Assembly: GCA_021811935.1 (NCBI GenBank)
Contig: JAKAPW010000008.1
Location: 1-34,275, forward strand
Direction: 5' to 3'
Length of the DNA stretch: 34,275 nt
DNA from: an archaeon
GTDB taxonomy: Archaea; Thermoproteota; Nitrososphaeria; Conexivisphaerales; DTJL01
This document shows, piece by piece, positions 19,640 to 29,133 of this stretch. Position 1 is the stretch's first letter, and each line of letters starts with the position of its first letter. The notes under the pieces were generated by a model that was not told the DNA's origin, did no database searches, and worked only from the letters and a program-made list of their open reading frames with translations. The position numbers and the translations under genes are program-made.

Positions 19640-20134
19640 ATGGAGAGGCAGGAGGAGACCAGGCGCAGGGTGGAGAGGGCCGAGGACTTCGACGCGCTCT
19701 TCGAGCTGGTCAAGGAGGTGGTGGAAAGGGAGATCCGGGAGCACAGGGCGGGGCTCTCTCTGCTGCTCACCGACATGCCCCCCTACGTGGGCGCCTACCA
19801 CCCCTTCGGCTCGAACGCGATAGTGGTCAACAGGTCGCTGGTCAACGCGCTGCGCAAGGAGGTGACCGACCCGAGGGAGCTGAACTCGTTCATATTCACG
19901 CTGCTCATGCACGAGTACCTCCACAGCATGGGCCACCTGGACGACGCCGAAGTGCGGAGGATGGTCTCCAACATCTGCGGCAGGGCGCTGGGCGAGTCGC
20001 ACATGACGGTGAAGATGTCGAGCGCCGACTGGCTGGGCAGGTACCCCGGCCTCTCCTCGTTGAAGGACGCCTTCTCAGACTCCTTCGAGTCCGTCACGAA
20101 GTTCGACAGCTCGAGCAAGAGCTACATGGGCTGA
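19640..20134 (+). CDS. Predicted zinc metallopeptidase with HExxHxxGxxD motif
   Basis: FTLLMHEYLHSMGHLDDAEVRRM; in-frame TTG at 19616 is an alternative start. Confidence 0.75.
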   Translation: MERQEETRRRVERAEDFDALFELVKEVVEREIREHRAGLSLLLTDMPPYVGAYHPFGSNAIVVNRSLVNALRKEVTDPRELNSFIFTLLMHEYLHSMGHLDDAEVRRMVSNICGRALGESHMTVKMSSADWLGRYPGLSSLKDAFSDSFESVTKFDSSSKSYMG

Positions 20135-21144
20135 CGGGCGGCCTCCCTCCTCATCGAGCGGGCTATGGTCATGTCCACCACCGCCTCGCAGATGTCGGCC
20201 GCGTAGTCGGACACCCTCCATATGTGCTCCATCACGAGCCCGGTGGCCGGCCCCTTCCTCTCCCTCCCCGCCTTGACCCCCTCGTGCTCCATCAGCGCCT
20301 CCTCCGCCCGCCTCCCGTCGAACCTGAAGAACGAGGATATCGCGTTCTCGTATTCCGCGCTCACCTGCCCCGCCTCGTCCCTTACGAGCCCGGACTCCTC
20401 CGGCGTCAGCGCCGCGCCGGCGAGGGCCATCTCCGCTATGGACACCGCATGGTCCGCTATCCTCTCGACGCTCTTCACTATCGTCTTGGCCATCATCGCC
20501 TCCGACCTGTACAGGAGGCCCGTGTCCTTCAGCATGGAGGCGCTGTCGGCCGCCTGGTTGAGTATCCTCACCGAATAGAAGTGGAACCTGTCGACGTCGT
20601 CGTCCGTCCCGGTGACGGAGACCGCCTCCTCCCTGTCGCCGGACAGCAGCGAGGAGACGGCCTCCTGGAGCATGTTGGACGATATGAAGTACATCCTCCT
20701 CACGAGCGTCATGATGTCCGTCCGCGGCCTGGCGACCAGCGCCTGGAAAGTGAGCTCCTTGAGGCTGTCCTCTATCACCTCGAGCCCGATGGTCCTCCTC
20801 GCTATCTTCTGCCTGAGGTCTTCCTTGAAGGGGACGCCGAGCCTGCCTCCCTTCGGGAGGACCCTGATCACTTCGCACCCGGCGAGGTACGCGGACACCA
20901 CCCTCCTCGCGACCGTCTCGACGGGCTCCCCCGATTCGATCAGGTCCATCTGGTGGCCCGGCGGGGTGCCCGCCTTCAACGGCATGATCCTCAGCGCCTC
21001 TCCGTCCTCCTGGACGACCAGGGAGTCCTGCGGGTGCAGCCCCGCGGCCTCCACCCACGACTTCGGGAGGTTGACCGAATAGGAAGACTTGCCCGTGTAC
21101 TGGAGCTTCCTCACGCTCCCTTCCTGAGTGTCCATATGGTTCAT
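20122..21144 (-). CDS. AbrB-PhoU domain phosphate-uptake-type regulator
   Basis: N-terminal RKLQYTGKSSYSVNLPKSWVEAAGL (AbrB-like) plus PhoU helices (SVERIADHAVSIAEMAL, HIWRVSDYAADICEAVVDMTIA); TATA 'agtatatatt' about 22 nt upstream of ATG 21144. Confidence 0.9.
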   Translation of the reverse strand: MNHMDTQEGSVRKLQYTGKSSYSVNLPKSWVEAAGLHPQDSLVVQEDGEALRIMPLKAGTPPGHQMDLIESGEPVETVARRVVSAYLAGCEVIRVLPKGGRLGVPFKEDLRQKIARRTIGLEVIEDSLKELTFQALVARPRTDIMTLVRRMYFISSNMLQEAVSSLLSGDREEAVSVTGTDDDVDRFHFYSVRILNQAADSASMLKDTGLLYRSEAMMAKTIVKSVERIADHAVSIAEMALAGAALTPEESGLVRDEAGQVSAEYENAISSFFRFDGRRAEEALMEHEGVKAGRERKGPATGLVMEHIWRVSDYAADICEAVVDMTIARSMRREAARQPM

Positions 21145-21211
21145 GGCGAAGCATACGCACAATATATACTATCCCACCTTAAATAATCACGGCGGACAGG
21201 CCGTCCGAAGG

Positions 21212-22540
21212 ATGCCAGGCAAGTACTCCGTGCTCTCCGTCACCACGCTCGGCTCCCTGATGGCCGCGATAGACTCCACGGTGGTCTTCCTGGCCATACC
21301 CGCCATGGGGAGGTTCTTCGGCGCGGGCGTATCCTTTCTCTCCCTGGTGGTGGTCGCGTACCTCGTCACGTCCACCTCCACCATGATACCGGGCGGGAAC
21401 CTCGCCACGAAGTATGGCAAGAAGTCCTTCTACATGCTCGGCTTCGCCCTGTTCACGCTCTCCTCCGCGCTGATAGCCGCGTCGCCGGACATACTCTTCG
21501 TCATAGCCTTCAGGGCGCTGGAGGGGGTGGGCGCCGGGCTTCTCTCCACCTCGACGATCCCCATACTGCTCGACGTCTTTCCGCCGGGCGAGCGGGGGAG
21601 GGCAGTGGGGATAAACTCGGTATCGTGGGCCGTCGGCGCGCTGGCCGGCCCGGTCCTCGGCGGGCTGCTCGTGTCGTTCGACTGGAGGTACATCTTCCTG
21701 ATCAACGTCCCCATAGGGCTCTTCGCGCTGGCCGCCGGCTACTCCAGGATACCCAGGGACGAAGGGAAGCCGGGCGTCGACGTGGACCTGTACAGCATGG
21801 CGGGCCTCCTCATCTTCCTTGTCCCCCTGATCATGGGCATATCCTTCCTTTACCTGCCCTGGCTGTTCTTCGCGCTGGCCGCGCTCCCCGTCTTCCTGGT
21901 CGTGGAGCACAGGCGGCCGCTCATACCCCGCGCCCTGATCAGGAACGCGCGGTACGACTACATAATGTGCGCGTCGACGCTGCAGGCGATGGCCTTCTTC
22001 GGCACCACGTATTCGCTGAGCGTCTACCTGCAGGACGACCTGGGGGTCAAGCCGCTGCTGGCCGGGCTGCTGCTCGCCTCCTACCCCGTCGCGTCGCTGC
22101 TGGCGAACCCCCTGGGGGGCTATCTGCTGGACAGGACCCGCCGCGGAGCGGCCATCATGGCCGGCGGGCTGCTCCTCCAGGGCGGGTCGCTGGCCGCCCT
22201 GGCCTTCCAGCTGACCCGGTTCGACTATATGTCGGCGCTGCTCTTCCTGGCCGGCTTCGGCGGCTCCCTCTACTGGGCGTCGTCGTCTACGCTCGCCATA
22301 GACGCCAGCGGCGGGGAGCACAGGTCCCTGGCCAGCGGCGCCCTGTTCACGGTGAGGAACATCGCCCTGATCATATCCATCTCCGCCTTCCCGGTCTTCA
22401 TGGCCGCGACATCGCCCGGCGTCCTCCTGCTCCACGCGAACATCCACATCCAGGACGCGGTCATGTACTACCTGCTGACCGCCGGGACGCTGTCCTGCCT
22501 GTCCGCGGCGTTCATGCTGCCCTACCGGATGGCACCGTAG
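21212..22540 (+). CDS. MFS transporter (DHA2/EmrB-like)
   Basis: TTLGSLMAAIDSTVVFLAIPAM, LATKYGKKSFYMLGFALFTLSSAL, FRALEGVGAGLL, PPGERGRAVGINSVSWAVGALAGPVLGGLL; TATA 'ttaaataat' about 28 nt upstream. Confidence 0.92.
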   Translation: MPGKYSVLSVTTLGSLMAAIDSTVVFLAIPAMGRFFGAGVSFLSLVVVAYLVTSTSTMIPGGNLATKYGKKSFYMLGFALFTLSSALIAASPDILFVIAFRALEGVGAGLLSTSTIPILLDVFPPGERGRAVGINSVSWAVGALAGPVLGGLLVSFDWRYIFLINVPIGLFALAAGYSRIPRDEGKPGVDVDLYSMAGLLIFLVPLIMGISFLYLPWLFFALAALPVFLVVEHRRPLIPRALIRNARYDYIMCASTLQAMAFFGTTYSLSVYLQDDLGVKPLLAGLLLASYPVASLLANPLGGYLLDRTRRGAAIMAGGLLLQGGSLAALAFQLTRFDYMSALLFLAGFGGSLYWASSSTLAIDASGGEHRSLASGALFTVRNIALIISISAFPVFMAATSPGVLLLHANIHIQDAVMYYLLTAGTLSCLSAAFMLPYRMAP

Positions 22541-24588
22541 AGGCCCGGTTCCCCGACGGGGCGGGACGCGCCGTGCAGCCCTTCGAAGACGGTCTCCGCC
22601 GCCTTCCGCAGCATCCTGACGTACAGCCCCCTGTCGTAGCCGGCGGACCGGTGGTCCGCCCTGACCCTGCAGAGCGGGTTCCTGTGACCGTGGTCGGTGT
22701 AGACGAACCTTATGTCGTCGCCGACCACCACCTCCTTCCCCGAGCTCAGCAGCTGCAGCGCCGCGGAACCGTGCGCCACCCTGACCTTGTAGTCCTCCGG
22801 GGCCTTCCGCAGGCTCCTGCTGACCACGAGCCCCTCCGGCTCGGCCCTGCCCTCCTCTATCAGCCTGACGTATTCCGCCACAAGCCTCTCCGCCGCCGCG
22901 GGCCCCGGCTGGCCTTCGCCGCCCATCAGCGTCAGTATCAGCCTGGCCTGGAACTCCTTGATCAGCGGCGGGGTGTCGTCCCTCCTGAGCTCTATCCCCC
23001 GCGCCTCCACCTCCCCGTCGTAGGTCACGCCGAAGTACCTGTTCATCGCGGACGACGACTCGTCCCCGGCGAGGTTCGTGAACGCCAGGGACCTGAAGTG
23101 CCTGTCGAGCGACACGGGGAGCCCCGTCCTCCGGCCTATCTCCGACGCCAGGGCCTCGTAGTCCTGCCTGGCCGCGCCTTCCTTCTTCACGAAGAGGGAG
23201 TCCACCGCGCCGTAGACCAGCGTGTAACCATGGCACTCTGCCACCGTCTTGGCCTTCAGCATGGCCTCCCTCGACATCCTGTTTATCTCCTCGAAGGTGG
23301 CCACGTTGCCGAACCTGTTCCAGCAGCAGCCCGCTATCCCGTAGCTGCATACGAGGATCAGCTTCAGCGCGTCCAGCCTCTGCTCGCAGTACGCCCTCTC
23401 CCTGCTCCCCTTCGGCAGCCCGTCCCTGAGCTTCTTCAGCCTCATCCTCTTCTTCAGCCACGGCCCTATGACCGTGGGGATGAGGCCGGCGGGGGCGCCC
23501 GGGTCCTCCCTGGGCCTCTCATAGCTCAGGTTCCCGTTCAGCATTATGTTCGGATACTGGGAGTCGAAGTCCAGCGCCGCCACGTTGCTGTGCAGCACGC
23601 CCGTGATGGGCGTGAACGTTATCCCGCCCCTGTCCCTCTCCACCAGCTCGCGGAGCCCCCTGACCGGCTCGAAATACTCCTCCTCGGGTATGGCGTACCC
23701 GCCCTTCATCAGCTCGTAGCAGTTCCTCGAGTCTATCGTCTTGTTGCTGAGCCACTTCGCCGCCAGCCCCAGGGGGACGAAGCCGAACCTGCTCCTTTCG
23801 ACAAGCCCGGCCACCCCCCATTCCTCCGCGTCGTGCCCCATCACCCTGGCGTCTATGAATATCCGCCCGCCCCACGACCCCTGCCGCTTCACCTGCTCCC
23901 CGTCGCCCTCCCTGGGCAGCCGCTCCTGCCGTATGAGCGGGAACGTGGCGTCGCACCTGGGCAGCGCTATTATGTCGGGGTCGGCGTCCAGCACGCGGTC
24001 CGCGAGCTCCCTGCGCACCTCCTCCGGCCTTCCGGTCATCCGCCCCGCGCCGCACCTCGCCCCGGTCAGCACCCTCCTGCCCCCCTCCATCCTGTACTCC
24101 ACCTCCACGCGCATCATGCCGAACGGCGGCGGCTCCGCGGCGTCCTCCTCGTCCACCTTCCTCATCCACAGCAGCCTCCGCCCGTCGTCGGCGAAGGACA
24201 CCCTGCTCCCCGGCTCTATCCCGAGCCTGGCGAACAGGTACATCTGGACGTGCGTCAGGCTGGCGCCGTACAGCGAGGATACCAGGTGGCTCCGTTTCAG
24301 GTCTCCGACCAGCCCGTCGAACCCCTCCCCCCTGGCCTCGACCCTGACCAGCCTCTCCGCCGGCCCCCCTTCCAGCGAAGTCACCCTGCTTTCCGCCGCG
24401 GACGACACGACGGACGGGTGCTCCTGGAGCTCCTGGAGCAGCCCCCACTCCTCCGCCCAGCCCTTCGGCCTGACGTAGAAGGACGGCGCGTGCCTGTCCA
24501 GGAGCCTGACCACCCTCCCGTCGTCTCTCTTCACCCAGAGCACCGCGTCGCTCCCCTGCACGTAGACGTCCAGCAGCCAGCCTTCCAT
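22522..24588 (-). CDS. B-family DNA polymerase-like protein with degenerate exonuclease and palm motifs (PolB2/Dpo2-like)
   Basis: Motif A-like ALDFDSQYPNIM, motif B-like LKLILVCSYGIAG, motif C-like YGAVDSLFV; N-terminus EGWLLDVYVQGSDAVLW; overlaps the upstream ORF at TGATG. Confidence 0.87.
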   Translation of the reverse strand: MEGWLLDVYVQGSDAVLWVKRDDGRVVRLLDRHAPSFYVRPKGWAEEWGLLQELQEHPSVVSSAAESRVTSLEGGPAERLVRVEARGEGFDGLVGDLKRSHLVSSLYGASLTHVQMYLFARLGIEPGSRVSFADDGRRLLWMRKVDEEDAAEPPPFGMMRVEVEYRMEGGRRVLTGARCGAGRMTGRPEEVRRELADRVLDADPDIIALPRCDATFPLIRQERLPREGDGEQVKRQGSWGGRIFIDARVMGHDAEEWGVAGLVERSRFGFVPLGLAAKWLSNKTIDSRNCYELMKGGYAIPEEEYFEPVRGLRELVERDRGGITFTPITGVLHSNVAALDFDSQYPNIMLNGNLSYERPREDPGAPAGLIPTVIGPWLKKRMRLKKLRDGLPKGSRERAYCEQRLDALKLILVCSYGIAGCCWNRFGNVATFEEINRMSREAMLKAKTVAECHGYTLVYGAVDSLFVKKEGAARQDYEALASEIGRRTGLPVSLDRHFRSLAFTNLAGDESSSAMNRYFGVTYDGEVEARGIELRRDDTPPLIKEFQARLILTLMGGEGQPGPAAAERLVAEYVRLIEEGRAEPEGLVVSRSLRKAPEDYKVRVAHGSAALQLLSSGKEVVVGDDIRFVYTDHGHRNPLCRVRADHRSAGYDRGLYVRMLRKAAETVFEGLHGASRPVGEPGLYGAIR

Positions 24589-25544
24589 CAGTCGGTCCCC
24601 CCGGCGGCCCTCTCCAGCTTCTCCACCCTCTCCTTGAGCCTCTCTATCTCCAGCCTGTTCTCCACGTTCGCGGTGAGGTTCATCGCGTCCAGCGCCACGG
24701 GCAGCTGGGAGTTCGCCATCGCGGCGTGCTCCTCGTCCCACACCTTCCTCACCAGCGTTTCGAACGCGTCCCTGCGTTCCCTCCCCCTCAGCAGCGGCAG
24801 GTAGTTCTTCCTCAGCCCCTCCAGGACGGCCTGGTAGACCTGCCTGAACGACGGCGTGATCCTGCCCATCAGCGGGTCACCTGCAGCCGACACGGTCGCG
24901 TAGAGCGGCGTGGCCTTCTCCGGGTGCTTGACCAGGACGGCCTGCACCGCGCCGGGCTGCACGTCCCGAAAAAACACAGCCGTGTTGGCCAGGGCGTCCA
25001 TCCCCCTGGGCGTCTCCGCTGTCACCAGCATCGCGATGGATCGTTCGGCCGCCGTGCGCCAGAGCCTTGATACGGTCATCTCCACGGCCTTCATGGCGGC
25101 GCGCCTGTCCCCCGCGTCCTGGACGAACCTGGTCGCGCCGTGCACCACTATGAGCCTGGTGTCGTCCCTCCCTTCTATGCACAGGGCCAGCTCCTCGGCC
25201 GCCTTGGGCTGCCTGTACTGGTTGTACGCCGCCGCGAAATACACCCTTTCGAACACGACCATCGGGTCCATCCCCTCTTCCTTCGCGCACCCGGCTATCC
25301 TGTTGGTGTGCAGCAGCGTCTTCGCCGTGTGGTAGTTCGTGTTGTTCATGTACGCCACGGAGCCGGCCCTGCACCCCCTCACTATGACCCTGTGGACGAG
25401 CTCGTCGAGCATGCCCGACCTGCCGTAGAACAGGCAGAGTCCCCGTATCCCGCCGGTGAGCGCGTCCAGCCCGTCGAACCCGGTGTCCACCGCGGCGCCG
25501 CAGTCGACCATCTCCGACGCCTGGACGAGCGATACCTCTTTCAT
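24588..25544 (-). CDS. RecA/RadA-fold paralogue with degenerate Walker A and B
   Basis: TGFDGLDALTGGIRGLCLFYGRSGMLDELVHRVI and DDTRLIVVHGATRFVQD where RadA has GxxGxGKT and LVVVDS; 4-nt ATGA overlap with radA. Confidence 0.75.
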   Translation of the reverse strand: MKEVSLVQASEMVDCGAAVDTGFDGLDALTGGIRGLCLFYGRSGMLDELVHRVIVRGCRAGSVAYMNNTNYHTAKTLLHTNRIAGCAKEEGMDPMVVFERVYFAAAYNQYRQPKAAEELALCIEGRDDTRLIVVHGATRFVQDAGDRRAAMKAVEMTVSRLWRTAAERSIAMLVTAETPRGMDALANTAVFFRDVQPGAVQAVLVKHPEKATPLYATVSAAGDPLMGRITPSFRQVYQAVLEGLRKNYLPLLRGRERRDAFETLVRKVWDEEHAAMANSQLPVALDAMNLTANVENRLEIERLKERVEKLERAAGGTD

Positions 25545-26527
25545 CTCCCCCTCTCCTTCTTCGTGTCCGAAACGCCCGCGTCCGTCACCGTGAACCTGGC
25601 CTCCGAATACGGGTGGTGGGGGCTGTCCACCATGGCGGCCACCCGCTCGTCGCCGGACCTCCTCAGGTACACCCTGTACGTGGAGCTGTGGCCGAGCACG
25701 TGGCCCCCCGTCGGCCTCGTGGGGTCCCCGAAGAGCGTGTTTGGCGACGACTGCACCTGGTTGGTTATGATCACGGCTATGCCGTAGACCTCGGCCAGGT
25801 TGTGCAGCCTGTGCATCAGTATGTTGAGCCTCTGCTGCCTTTCGGCGAGCGTCTCTCTGCCTATGAACTCCGACCTGAACAGGTTTATCACGCTGTCCAC
25901 CACGACCAGCCTGGCGTCGTTCTTCCTGACGTGCCCTCCCAGCGACCTGACCACCGCCTCCAGGTGCGGGACGTTGAAGGCCCTGCAGTACAGTATGCTG
26001 TCCAGCGCCTCGTCCTTGTCTATCCCCCTGGACCGGACTATCTCGCCCAGCCTGTTGACCCGGAACGTCCCCTCCGTGTCGACGTATATGGCGCGGCCGC
26101 CCAGCCCCCCCTCCTTCGGCGGCAGGTGGCAGAGCGCCGAGGCGGTATGGCATATCTGGGACTTGCCCGAGCCGAAGGCCCCGAAGAACTCCGTTATCGA
26201 GCCCGTCTCCACCCCGCCTCCGAGCAGCCCGTCCAGGGACGCGGAGCCCGTGCTGCAGAATCCGACCCTCTCCTTGCTCTTCGCCACTTCGCTCGCGGTG
26301 GCGAACTCGCCGACCAGCCGGCCCCCCTTCACCAGGCGCGACCTGGCGTTGGCTATCAGCAGCGCCGCGTTGCGGGCGTCCCCGCCCACCACCTCCAGTA
26401 TCTCGTCGGGCATGGACGAGGCCAGCTCGAAGGCGGAGCCTATCCCGGAGCCGAGCAGCTTGTGCTCCGTCCTTTCTTCCATGCCGTCCACTTCGCTCAG
26501 GGGCATTTCTTCCGCCACCACGGCCAT
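25541..26527 (-). CDS. radA: DNA repair/recombination protein RadA
   Basis: STGSASLDGLLGGGVETGSITEFFGAFGSGKSQICHT, AIYVDTEGTFRVNRL, LVVVDSVINLFRSEFIGRETLAERQQRLN, NQVQSSPNTLFGDPTRPTGGHVLGHSSTYRVYLRR; TATA 'gttatatc' about 26 nt upstream of ATG 26527. Confidence 0.95.
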   Translation of the reverse strand: MAVVAEEMPLSEVDGMEERTEHKLLGSGIGSAFELASSMPDEILEVVGGDARNAALLIANARSRLVKGGRLVGEFATASEVAKSKERVGFCSTGSASLDGLLGGGVETGSITEFFGAFGSGKSQICHTASALCHLPPKEGGLGGRAIYVDTEGTFRVNRLGEIVRSRGIDKDEALDSILYCRAFNVPHLEAVVRSLGGHVRKNDARLVVVDSVINLFRSEFIGRETLAERQQRLNILMHRLHNLAEVYGIAVIITNQVQSSPNTLFGDPTRPTGGHVLGHSSTYRVYLRRSGDERVAAMVDSPHHPYSEARFTVTDAGVSDTKKERGR

Positions 26528-26634
26528 GAGGGCCCCGCGCCCGCGGGCGAGATATAACGAACCACGCATGGTGGACGGGGGGGAGGGAGGGGGGCCACGC
26601 AACGGAAAAGAAGGGCCGGCCCGGAGCCGTCGGC

Positions 26635-27192
26635 GTGGCCCCCGACAGGTACTTCCCCCCTCTCCTGATCGACAACCCGGTCAGGAGGCTCCTCTCGCCC
26701 CCCGGCAGGCTCGTCTCGAAATACGTCGAGGAGGGCGAGGCCGTGGCGGACATAGGCTGCGGGCCGGGCTACTACACGCTGGCGATGGCCGAGGCGGTGG
26801 GGGAGGGCGGGAAGGTCTACGCGGCCGACCCGGACCCCAGGGCGATAGAGGCGCTAGAGCGGAAGCTGGGCGACCGCCGGGGCGTGGTGGAGGCGAGGGC
26901 CGCCTCCGCAGCCGACCTGGGCTTCATACCCGACCGCTCGGTCGACTTCGTCCTGGCGAACGGGATGATCTGCTGCATGACGGAGCACTCGGCGGCGCTG
27001 CGCGAAATCAGGCGCATCATGAAGCCGTCCGGCTCCGCCTACATCAGCGTGTCAAAGATGTTCAGGAGGCGGGACCCCAGGGGGGTCGGCAGGGAAGAGT
27101 GGGAGCAGACGCTCGCCGGGTTCAGCGTGCTGGAAAGGGGGGACGGCCTTGCGACGAGATGGGCCCACGTGGCCCTGATCACCTTGACATGA
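26635..27192 (+). CDS. Class I SAM-dependent methyltransferase
   Basis: VADIGCGPGYYTLAMAEAVGEGGKVYAADPDPRAIEAL, IPDRSVDFVLANGM, REIRRIMKPSGSAYISV; GTG start. Confidence 0.88.
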   Translation: MAPDRYFPPLLIDNPVRRLLSPPGRLVSKYVEEGEAVADIGCGPGYYTLAMAEAVGEGGKVYAADPDPRAIEALERKLGDRRGVVEARAASAADLGFIPDRSVDFVLANGMICCMTEHSAALREIRRIMKPSGSAYISVSKMFRRRDPRGVGREEWEQTLAGFSVLERGDGLATRWAHVALITLT

Positions 27193-27907
27193 GACGCTTG
27201 GCGGTGGTCAGCCTCTTCCTCCTCGTGACGCAGGCCACCGCATCGTGCATGTGTATCGATTCCTCGCTCCTGGCCTCCACGAAATAGGCTCCGGGGAAGG
27301 CGCCCGCGGCCTCCCGGGCGACGTCCTCCACGAACCTCGGGTTCTCCTGGGCCTCGATTATCTTCATCGCCTCGTCCGACCTCTTCATCATCTCGGTCGT
27401 GGCCGCGCTGAAGCACCCCAGCATCCTGACCGCCATCTCCTCTATGTCGACGTAGTCCCTGCTCATCAGCTCGACGGTCAGCCACGCCCTCTGCATGTGC
27501 CCCACGCCCGTTATCTCCTTGCTGCAGGGGCAGGCGGTTATCCCGGGGACGCTCAGGGAGTACGCGTACCTGTTCCTGTGCAGCTCCACCCGCACCCGGA
27601 CGAAGATGTCCCGGAACGGGTATTCCAGGGAGCAGCCGACGCTCGCGTCCGCCTGCGAGCTCTCGACGTCGGAGACGATCCTCCTCAGCGAATCCTCAAG
27701 GTGCCCGTCTTCGGAGTTCCGGGCGGCCGCCTCGACCAGCCTGCTCATGTGCACCCCCCTGGTCTTGCTCGTCTTCGTCATTATGCGGAGCCTGACGGGC
27801 AGGGCGTGCTTCCCCACCTTGAACATCATCTTCAGGGAGTCTATCCCGCCGTGCACGTCCGTCGCGCTATATTCGCTCTGGACGTCCGCCTCAAGGTTGA
27901 GCTTCAA
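27179..27907 (-). CDS. GTP cyclohydrolase FolE2/MptA family
   Basis: CSLEYPFRDIFVRVRVELHRNRYAYSLSVPGITACPCSKEITGVGHMQRAWLTVEL; TTG start overlapping queC. Confidence 0.85.
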   Translation of the reverse strand: MKLNLEADVQSEYSATDVHGGIDSLKMMFKVGKHALPVRLRIMTKTSKTRGVHMSRLVEAAARNSEDGHLEDSLRRIVSDVESSQADASVGCSLEYPFRDIFVRVRVELHRNRYAYSLSVPGITACPCSKEITGVGHMQRAWLTVELMSRDYVDIEEMAVRMLGCFSAATTEMMKRSDEAMKIIEAQENPRFVEDVAREAAGAFPGAYFVEARSEESIHMHDAVACVTRRKRLTTAKRLMSR

Positions 27908-28548
27908 GCCGGCACCTCCAGCGGGTCGCGCATCCCGAGGGCGGCGAAGGCCCCTGCGCGGGACGTGCAGCCGTAGCATCCGCCGCACCGCGTCTTCCCG
28001 TTGTTGTAGCAGCTCCAGGTGAGCTCGAGCGGAACGCCGAGTCTGATCGCCTCGCCGACCACAGCCGTCTTGGTCATGTCCTTTAAAGGCATCTTCACCT
28101 CCGGGGCAGGCCCTTTCATCCCAAGGGAGAGCGCCCCGTTCATCGCTTCCAGGAAGGCGGCGCCCGCGTCCGGGAAGCGCCCCGCGTCCTGGCCGTTGTG
28201 CCCGGAGACTATCAGGCCGGCCCCGAGCGCCTCCGCGTACGCGGCGGCTATCCCGAAGAAGACCGCGTTCCTCGCCGGGACGTACGCGCTCGAGATGCCG
28301 GAATCGCCGTCCTCCAGTACCTCGTCGGAGGAGCTGGGGGACGAAGGCAGCGACTTGTAGAACGGGAGCTCCACCACGCTCTGGCTCACGCCGGCCGCCC
28401 TGGCTATCCTTTCCGCCGCCGCGAGCTCCGGGGACTGGCGCAGCTCGTAGTCGAAGGTCAGCGCGTGTGCCTCCGCCCCGCCTCTGACGGTGCTGTAGAG
28501 GGCGGTGGCCGAGTCTATCCCGCCCGACAGCAGCACTATGGCCTTCAA
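27904..28548 (-). CDS. queC: 7-cyano-7-deazaguanine (preQ0) synthase
   Basis: LKAIVLLSGGIDSATALYST (PP-loop) and zinc motif CYNNGKTRCGGCYGCTSR; TTG start. Confidence 0.93.
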   Translation of the reverse strand: MKAIVLLSGGIDSATALYSTVRGGAEAHALTFDYELRQSPELAAAERIARAAGVSQSVVELPFYKSLPSSPSSSDEVLEDGDSGISSAYVPARNAVFFGIAAAYAEALGAGLIVSGHNGQDAGRFPDAGAAFLEAMNGALSLGMKGPAPEVKMPLKDMTKTAVVGEAIRLGVPLELTWSCYNNGKTRCGGCYGCTSRAGAFAALGMRDPLEVPA

Positions 28549-29060
28549 GCCCTGGCCATCCTGAAGGCGGAGGCCCCCTTGTTGGTCCCCTCGAAGAAGA
28601 ACAGCTTGAGGGCGGAGACCTGCTTGGGCATGCTCGCCATCACCCTGTCGGCCGCCTCCCCGGCTATGTTCTCGCTTGTGGCCTCCTTGGGGAGGAGCAC
28701 CACCGCGTCCTCCGGGACGTCGAGGTGGAAGCGGCCCTTCGGCCCTTCGAAGTCTACTATGCACCTTCCGTTCAGGACGTGCGCGTACGAGCTCGACACT
28801 ATGAACTTGTGGTCGAACCCCTTTATCACCTCCTTGAGCCTTGCCTTGGCCTCCCCGAAGTCGAGGATCATGCCGTCGCCGCCGACGGCCCCGAACACCT
28901 CGGCCGATATCCTGGAGCTGTGGCCGTGGATGACGGAGCAGCTCTCGGAGTGGGGCAGGCAGTGGCCGTAGTCGAAGTGCAGGGAGTCGTCCTCGACGAA
29001 GAGGGAGCTCCAGCTGGCGGGGACGGGCGCGGGCCCGCCGCGCGAAAGTTCGAAGATCAT
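28545..29060 (-). CDS. queD: 6-carboxytetrahydropterin synthase/PTPS family
   Basis: LHFDYGHCLPHSESCSVIHGHSSRISAEVFG, GMILDFGEAKARLKEVIKGFDHKFIV; adjacent to queC; start tentative. Confidence 0.85.
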   Translation of the reverse strand: MIFELSRGGPAPVPASWSSLFVEDDSLHFDYGHCLPHSESCSVIHGHSSRISAEVFGAVGGDGMILDFGEAKARLKEVIKGFDHKFIVSSSYAHVLNGRCIVDFEGPKGRFHLDVPEDAVVLLPKEATSENIAGEAADRVMASMPKQVSALKLFFFEGTNKGASAFRMARA

Positions 29061-29133
29061 GGCTTTGTCCTTGGCCGTGCGAGCCCCCTTCATCCCTTTA
29101 AACCCTAGTGGAATTCCAGGCACCCCGGCACGT

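Follow-up and report, generated by a model that had tools for sequence, protein, structure and literature searches.

The window, the 34,275 nucleotide stretch of archaeal DNA analysed here, is contig 8 of a 1.46 Mb assembly (107 contigs, 85% complete, 0.3% contamination) and carries on its minus strand, at 22522-26527, three genes each of which overlaps the next. The first, for a Rad51-family recombinase of 328 amino acids termed RadA2, a second copy that is apparently active, runs from an ATG at 26527 to a TGA at 25541. Its stop shares the sequence ATGA (25541-25544) with the start of gene 2 (24588-25544), which in turn is joined via TGATG (24586-24590) to gene 3, for the translesion polymerase PolB2 of 688 amino acids (ATG at 24588 to TAG at 22522). 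A TATA box, TTATAT at 26557-26552, stands 24 nt before the RadA2 ATG and is kept in L039, L040 and L041. A first-pass annotation made from the letters alone had described this trio behind a single TATA box, and its coordinates and both overlaps proved exact. Two features escaped it. One is a PPB2 domain within gene 2, by virtue of which three genes encode four functions; the other is the C-box, CCCTCCCCCC at 26578-26587 of the minus strand, a conserved promoter element that precedes the TATA box and whose C-rich run reaches 26592. A scan for sigma-70 promoters gave no match, as archaeal DNA would predict. Since the same gene order is present in all four of the genomes searched from the window's family, a chimeric contig is unlikely, and the overlapping genes are, as in other mutasome operons, adjacent and of one orientation. 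Beside the operon, at 27182-29120, are genes for a FolE2-type GTP cyclohydrolase, QueC and PTPS, an archaeosine/preQ0-type cluster, and at 20122-21162 is one for a PhoU-domain protein with a MazE/AbrB-like DNA-binding domain at its N-terminus.

Profile searches of all three proteins, a check proposed with the annotation, returned Pfam Rad51 for gene 1 (E=1.8e-77) and weakly for gene 2 (E=2e-4), and the family B polymerases for gene 3 (E=9e-22). RadA2 scores 356.9 bits against the RadA model NF003301, above its cut-off of 259, and 326.5 against TIGR02236, below the cut-off of 361.15 as expected of a divergent paralogue, while its N-terminal HhH region (residues 3-55) matches HHH_5 at 20.2 bits, below the 27-bit cut-off. 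The Walker A and Walker B sequences already remarked on, GAFGSGKSQ and LVVVDS, are intact, as are the catalytic Glu (in DTEGTF), the TNQ motif, the L1 loop SEFIGRETLAERQQ and an FxxA linker, here FATA; a motif check finds that the sensor Gln, L1/L2 and the ATP-cap Asp-Pro are also kept. One point that counts against the reading developed below is that position 2 of Walker A is Ala, the usual residue there being Glu. With the motifs for ATPase activity, DNA binding and polymerisation all present, gene 1 reads as a second intact RadA, apparently an active one. The same genome has a separate RadA1 on contig 58 and also encodes a RadB-like protein. RadA2 shares with archaeal RadA (arCOG00417-type) the full motif set, the NF003301 score and the FxxA linker, but differs in falling in a separate clade, in evolving faster, in its linkage to polB2 and in its TIGR02236 score; it is 50% identical to RadA1, and comparison of the two gave just six separating residues and no interface prediction from them. 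The RadA1 genes L160, L161 and L162 (in G003, G001 and G074) are 596-854 codons long and split inside Walker A, following GEFGSGK or GEYGSGK, by an intein-like insertion; G001 and G003 have no such interruption in their operon RadA2.

Gene 2 had been taken for an eroded RecA-like protein, and for its larger part this stands. At the places of Walker A and Walker B it has FYGRSGMLDE and LIVVHG, and its structural model (pLDDT 83.6) finds its best PDB matches in RadA/RAD51 (E=1.6e-13). This core, at 24870-25544, has a RadA fold from which the N-terminal helical domain and the ATPase residues are absent, the combination that characterises iRadA. What the description missed is that the last 93 residues (24588-24869) are PPB2 (arCOG07300), homologous to the separate PPB2 genes of L042-L044 and of Calditenuaceae. 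This part starts with MGRITPSFRQVY at gene-2 residue 226, the MGRT N-terminal arm, and is modelled with three helices at gene-2 residues 233-316. It also has a start of its own. An AGGTGA at 24877-24882, 7 nt before the internal ATG at 24869, matches the organism's own 16S 3' end, GATCACCTCCT; across 29 fused homologues the median binding of the 16S tail at the internal PPB2 start is -10.4 kcal/mol, versus -2.75 at other in-frame ATGs (n=294, p=1.5e-11), with the window's own site at -8.2 kcal/mol, a value to which 3.7% of the background is equally low. Gene 2 joins an ATPase-dead RadA to PPB2 and has a conserved internal start that would serve PPB2 by itself. Fusions of iRadA to PPB2 with Shine-Dalgarno motifs ahead of PPB2 were reported earlier (PMC11791011). 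Inspection by eye of the C-termini of iRadA and PolB2 found no QxxLxxFF-like PCNA-binding sequence, a feature of only some members.

For gene 3 the earlier description, PolB-like with damaged motifs, was right about the damage and less so about what it implied. The ExoI Asp/Glu are lost, on an alignment read by eye, leaving no proofreading motif, and motif C reads YGAVDS, the first Asp of DxD gone and the second kept. Motif A (DFDSQYP), however, is intact, and the model (pLDDT 89) matches archaeal family B structures, with a family B polymerase as best PDB match (E=7e-39). The first Asp of DxD was lost once in the window's genus (the window and L069 are sisters, 97/93), with a separate loss in L062, and sister genera retain the full motif as YADVDS or YSDVDS. 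Present too, as ERDRGG at residues 317-322 and kept in nearly all close homologues, is the D(K/R) loop motif, which marks members of the mutasome, precedes the palm and contacts PPB2/iRadA. Sulfolobus Dpo2, in which PolC is altered too, is a robust polymerase and extender required for damage-induced mutagenesis (PMC8764526), and for that reason the window PolB2 is probably active, a specialised enzyme rather than a dead one. By this analogy 'degenerate' polymerase motifs are not to be equated with inactivity, homologues with that change being active. In G039 a PolB2 with an intact YGDTDS (L045:8147-10762, the same as L081) bears a C-terminal LigD 3'-phosphoesterase domain (PF13298, E=7e-23), so that there the polymerase is fused to a 3'-end-processing enzyme inside a RadA2-linked mutasome operon.

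These properties bear on an arrangement that the first-pass annotation had in mind, a stable complex built around RadA as its catalytic ATPase, in which the RecA-like and the PolB-like protein would both be inactive scaffolds. Translational coupling and the lost ATPase motifs of gene 2 are what it would predict, but polymerisation by PolB2 homologues whose DxD is altered (PMC8764526) speaks against it, as do the intact motif A, the remaining second Asp of motif C and the confidently modelled polymerase fold of the window's own PolB2, and the full DxD of sister genera; that arrangement is very improbable. Its more general idea of a single complex has in silico backing for PolB2, iRadA and PPB2; RadA as a further subunit is unsupported, AlphaFold pairing of PolB2 with active RadA having scored poorly, at 0.28 (PMC11791011).

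The suggested kinship to PolB2/Dpo2 and to a translesion module was well founded: between them, genes 2 and 3 encode the PolB2, iRadA and PPB2 mutasome predicted from genomics (PMC4104785) and modelled with AlphaFold as a heteropentamer with a PPB2 trimer, in which PolB2 grips iRadA via a RadA-like oligomerisation motif (PMC11791011). The window shares with the described system (Makarova 2014; Timinskas 2025; the Sulfolobus Dpo2 experiments) its three components, coupled same-direction genes, the MGRxT arm, the D(K/R) motif, exonuclease loss, an altered DxD and the iRadA-PPB2 fusion with its internal Shine-Dalgarno sequence. It differs in opening with an extra intact RadA paralogue, and in its C-box as against the Sulfolobus DDRE element, ANTTTC, which is bound by Orc1-2 (PMC9738581). 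The mutasome is already known; new here are the C-box and a dedicated RadA2 that is co-inherited with PolB2. The main texts on the mutasome, to which the comparison was confined, mention none of this, though their supplements may hold prior notice, and literature searches directed at RadA paralogues within PolB2 operons, at iRadA and at the C-box brought up no description.

Is the RadA gene merely a spare copy that happens to sit beside an ordinary PolB2 mutasome operon? The described form of the mutasome has three components and no RadA (PMC4104785, PMC11791011), which would suit such an accident. Conservation of the trio, the absence of which had been named as what would tell against its significance, turned out to be extensive: iRadA(-PPB2)-PolB2 is immediately preceded by an intact RadA in 25 operons from 24 genomes of Conexivisphaerales, other Nitrososphaeria, Calditenuaceae, Geothermarchaeota, Brockarchaeota and Bathyarchaeota, counting three Nitrososphaeraceae with a gap of ~1.8 kb and L095, whose Walker A is masked (its apparent lack reflects masked sequence (N), and erosion was rejected). 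Nearly all 24 genomes have a separate RadA besides the operon copy. A tree of 85 RadAs contains a branch, supported 99/96, that divides all RadA1 rows from the 25 RadA2 rows (Nitrososphaeria, Geothermarchaeota, Brockarchaeota and a single Bathyarchaeote), which puts RadA2 in an ancient clade of its own, distinct from RadA1. Other RadA lineages occupy the same operon place in Calditenuaceae and some Bathyarchaeota. Since the RadAs found there derive from three separate lineages, an intact RadA was recruited to PolB2 operons at least three times. Within the RadA2 clade, the PolB2 distances among 11 genomes track those of RadA2 (Spearman 0.956; partial correlation 0.958, p=2e-4) and not those of RadA1 (0.146), though joint operon inheritance alone raises the RadA2-PolB2 correlation and joint function is not thereby proven. 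Adjacency and co-divergence together indicate that the pair moves and evolves as a unit, RadA2 being co-inherited with PolB2 across archaeal classes. Cross-class adjacency, a separate clade and co-divergence, together with retained catalytic residues and a C-box that is common even to unlinked copies, leave an incidental neighbour scarcely credible.

Co-occurrence by genome was set aside as main evidence, given its confounding with lineage: ~23 genomes without PolB2 all hold one RadA and many with PolB2 hold two, but the distribution lies mostly within one family. The Bathyarchaeote G066 has two complete RadA-iRadA-PPB2-PolB2 operons (L150, L098) whose RadA sequences differ. As for genomes with two RadA clades, a second one has been described in Asgard archaea (PMC12722695); its gene context is unreported, and 'PolB' is absent from that paper's text.

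Combined with the TATA box, the C-box pattern matches a single site in the window's own genome, at this operon, against 0 for the reversed control pattern; relaxing the pattern added 4 sites with no long C run and not above control (11), and a wider regulon in that genome was rejected. The element precedes the operon in 9 of the 9 Conexivisphaerales genomes with a visible operon promoter (family f1, and genera g6/g9 of f4), whether RadA2 is present or absent. Of the RadA2 genes that could be tested, 12 of 23 have C-box and TATA box upstream; of 46 RadA1 genes, none does (p=1.5e-7, indicative as the genes are related). The two boxes also precede iRadA where RadA2 is absent (L047, L050, L051), stand-alone PPB2 (L284 on contig 59 of G290 and L289 on contig 42 of G001, both genomes having an iRadA-PPB2 fusion as well) and one NurA gene (L290, Pfam E=4.6e-17). 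In G001, of the window's genus, the fusion lacks the MGRT arm and the separate, C-box-driven PPB2 has MGRIT, in agreement with the published rule whereby the arm is retained in one copy of PPB2. RadA2 shares this putative promoter element with other mutasome genes. The C-box was not found in Calditenuaceae or at about half of RadA2 genes. Several C-box and TATA combinations in relatives have no ORF behind them and were treated as chance.

Taken together, the favoured reading, and probably the correct one, is that this is a PolB2 mutasome operon with its own recombinase, a unit inducible by damage whose RadA2 filaments recruit or activate iRadA-PPB2-PolB2. The linkage of RadA2 to the mutasome is observed; from it we infer the complex and the induction. 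DNA damage would switch on the C-box promoter, and translational coupling would then yield RadA2, iRadA-PPB2, free PPB2 and PolB2, the fusion and free PPB2 providing each PolB2 with one iRadA and a trimer of PPB2. PolB2 would assemble with these as in the models of others, while RadA2 would polymerise with ATP on the single-stranded DNA exposed at a block. The end of its filament might then recruit or activate the mutasome via the Rad51-type interface of iRadA, as RecA* does with Pol V, the least certain step; PolB2 would extend beyond the lesion and RadA1 would remain for general recombination. Since modelling of PolB2 with active RadA is poor, any contact of RadA2 must run through iRadA or DNA.

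That modelling counts in favour of the main rival, in which RadA2 and the mutasome are simply damage-response genes regulated together without direct contact. Translesion synthesis would fall to the PolB2 complex alone and gap protection or recombination repair to RadA2, with a promoter in common because both are needed simultaneously. Many PolB2 operons have no RadA2, among them those of Methanomethylicales, of several Bathyarchaeota and of part of family f4 as well as divergent ones in ammonia oxidisers, so the mutasome works without it. Nitrososphaeraceae, G064 and G079 have their second RadA away from polB2, and such unlinked copies are still C-box-driven in G130, G157, G064 and G079 (L151, L216, L296, L298); NurA, a general end-resection nuclease, has the C-box once. 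Yet co-regulation does not require RadA to be first and adjacent, as it is in three separately derived cases, nor does it call for so tight a correlation between the divergence of PolB2 and that of RadA2, and on balance we think it rather unlikely that co-regulation is all there is to the association.

The favoured reading, of a mutasome recruited or activated by its own recombinase, has an obvious counterpart in the Escherichia coli Pol V mutasome (UmuD'2-UmuC-RecA), where an error-prone polymerase of a damage regulon likewise engages a RecA/Rad51-family subunit via an oligomerisation motif. This is analogy only. The polymerase here is of family B and Pol V of family Y, there is no LexA or UmuD homologue here, and the recombinase built into the complex is a dead paralogue, the live one being the product of a separate dedicated gene; profile searches with the three proteins gave no Y-family match that would place them with Pol V or ImuABC-DnaE2. 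The co-inheritance of RadA2 with the mutasome and their shared promoter element suggest, in archaea, a pairing of dedicated recombinase and error-prone polymerase much like that of RecA and polymerase V in bacteria. A bolder version is offered tentatively, at somewhat less than even chances: an SOS-like regulon in Nitrososphaeria and related archaea, marked by a C-box starting ~25-35 nt upstream of the TATA box, in which RadA2, co-expressed with the PolB2 mutasome, acts on it as RecA* does on Pol V, recombinase-controlled mutagenesis having evolved in parallel with the live and dead recombinases encoded side by side.

Why is an ATPase-dead RadA part of PolB2 mutasomes, and how are these controlled in archaea other than Sulfolobales? 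An apparently live RadA2 that is inherited, and probably regulated, with the mutasome bears on both questions, as a direct candidate for the controller and in its parallel to RecA and Pol V. Second archaeal RadA copies may more generally be mutasome partners, and are best kept apart from RadA1 in recombinase phylogenies. The C-box for its part offers a handle on a candidate DNA-damage regulon of Nitrososphaeria, soil ammonia oxidisers included, for which no described element was found. Among the latter, family f10 of Nitrososphaeraceae type (L296, L298, L300, L302, L304, L306, L308, L312) has an unlinked RadA2 plus RadA1. In G291 a small winged-helix-like ORF without a Pfam match (L273, ~460-900) lies directly behind a C-box and TATA box, and is a candidate regulator of the element.
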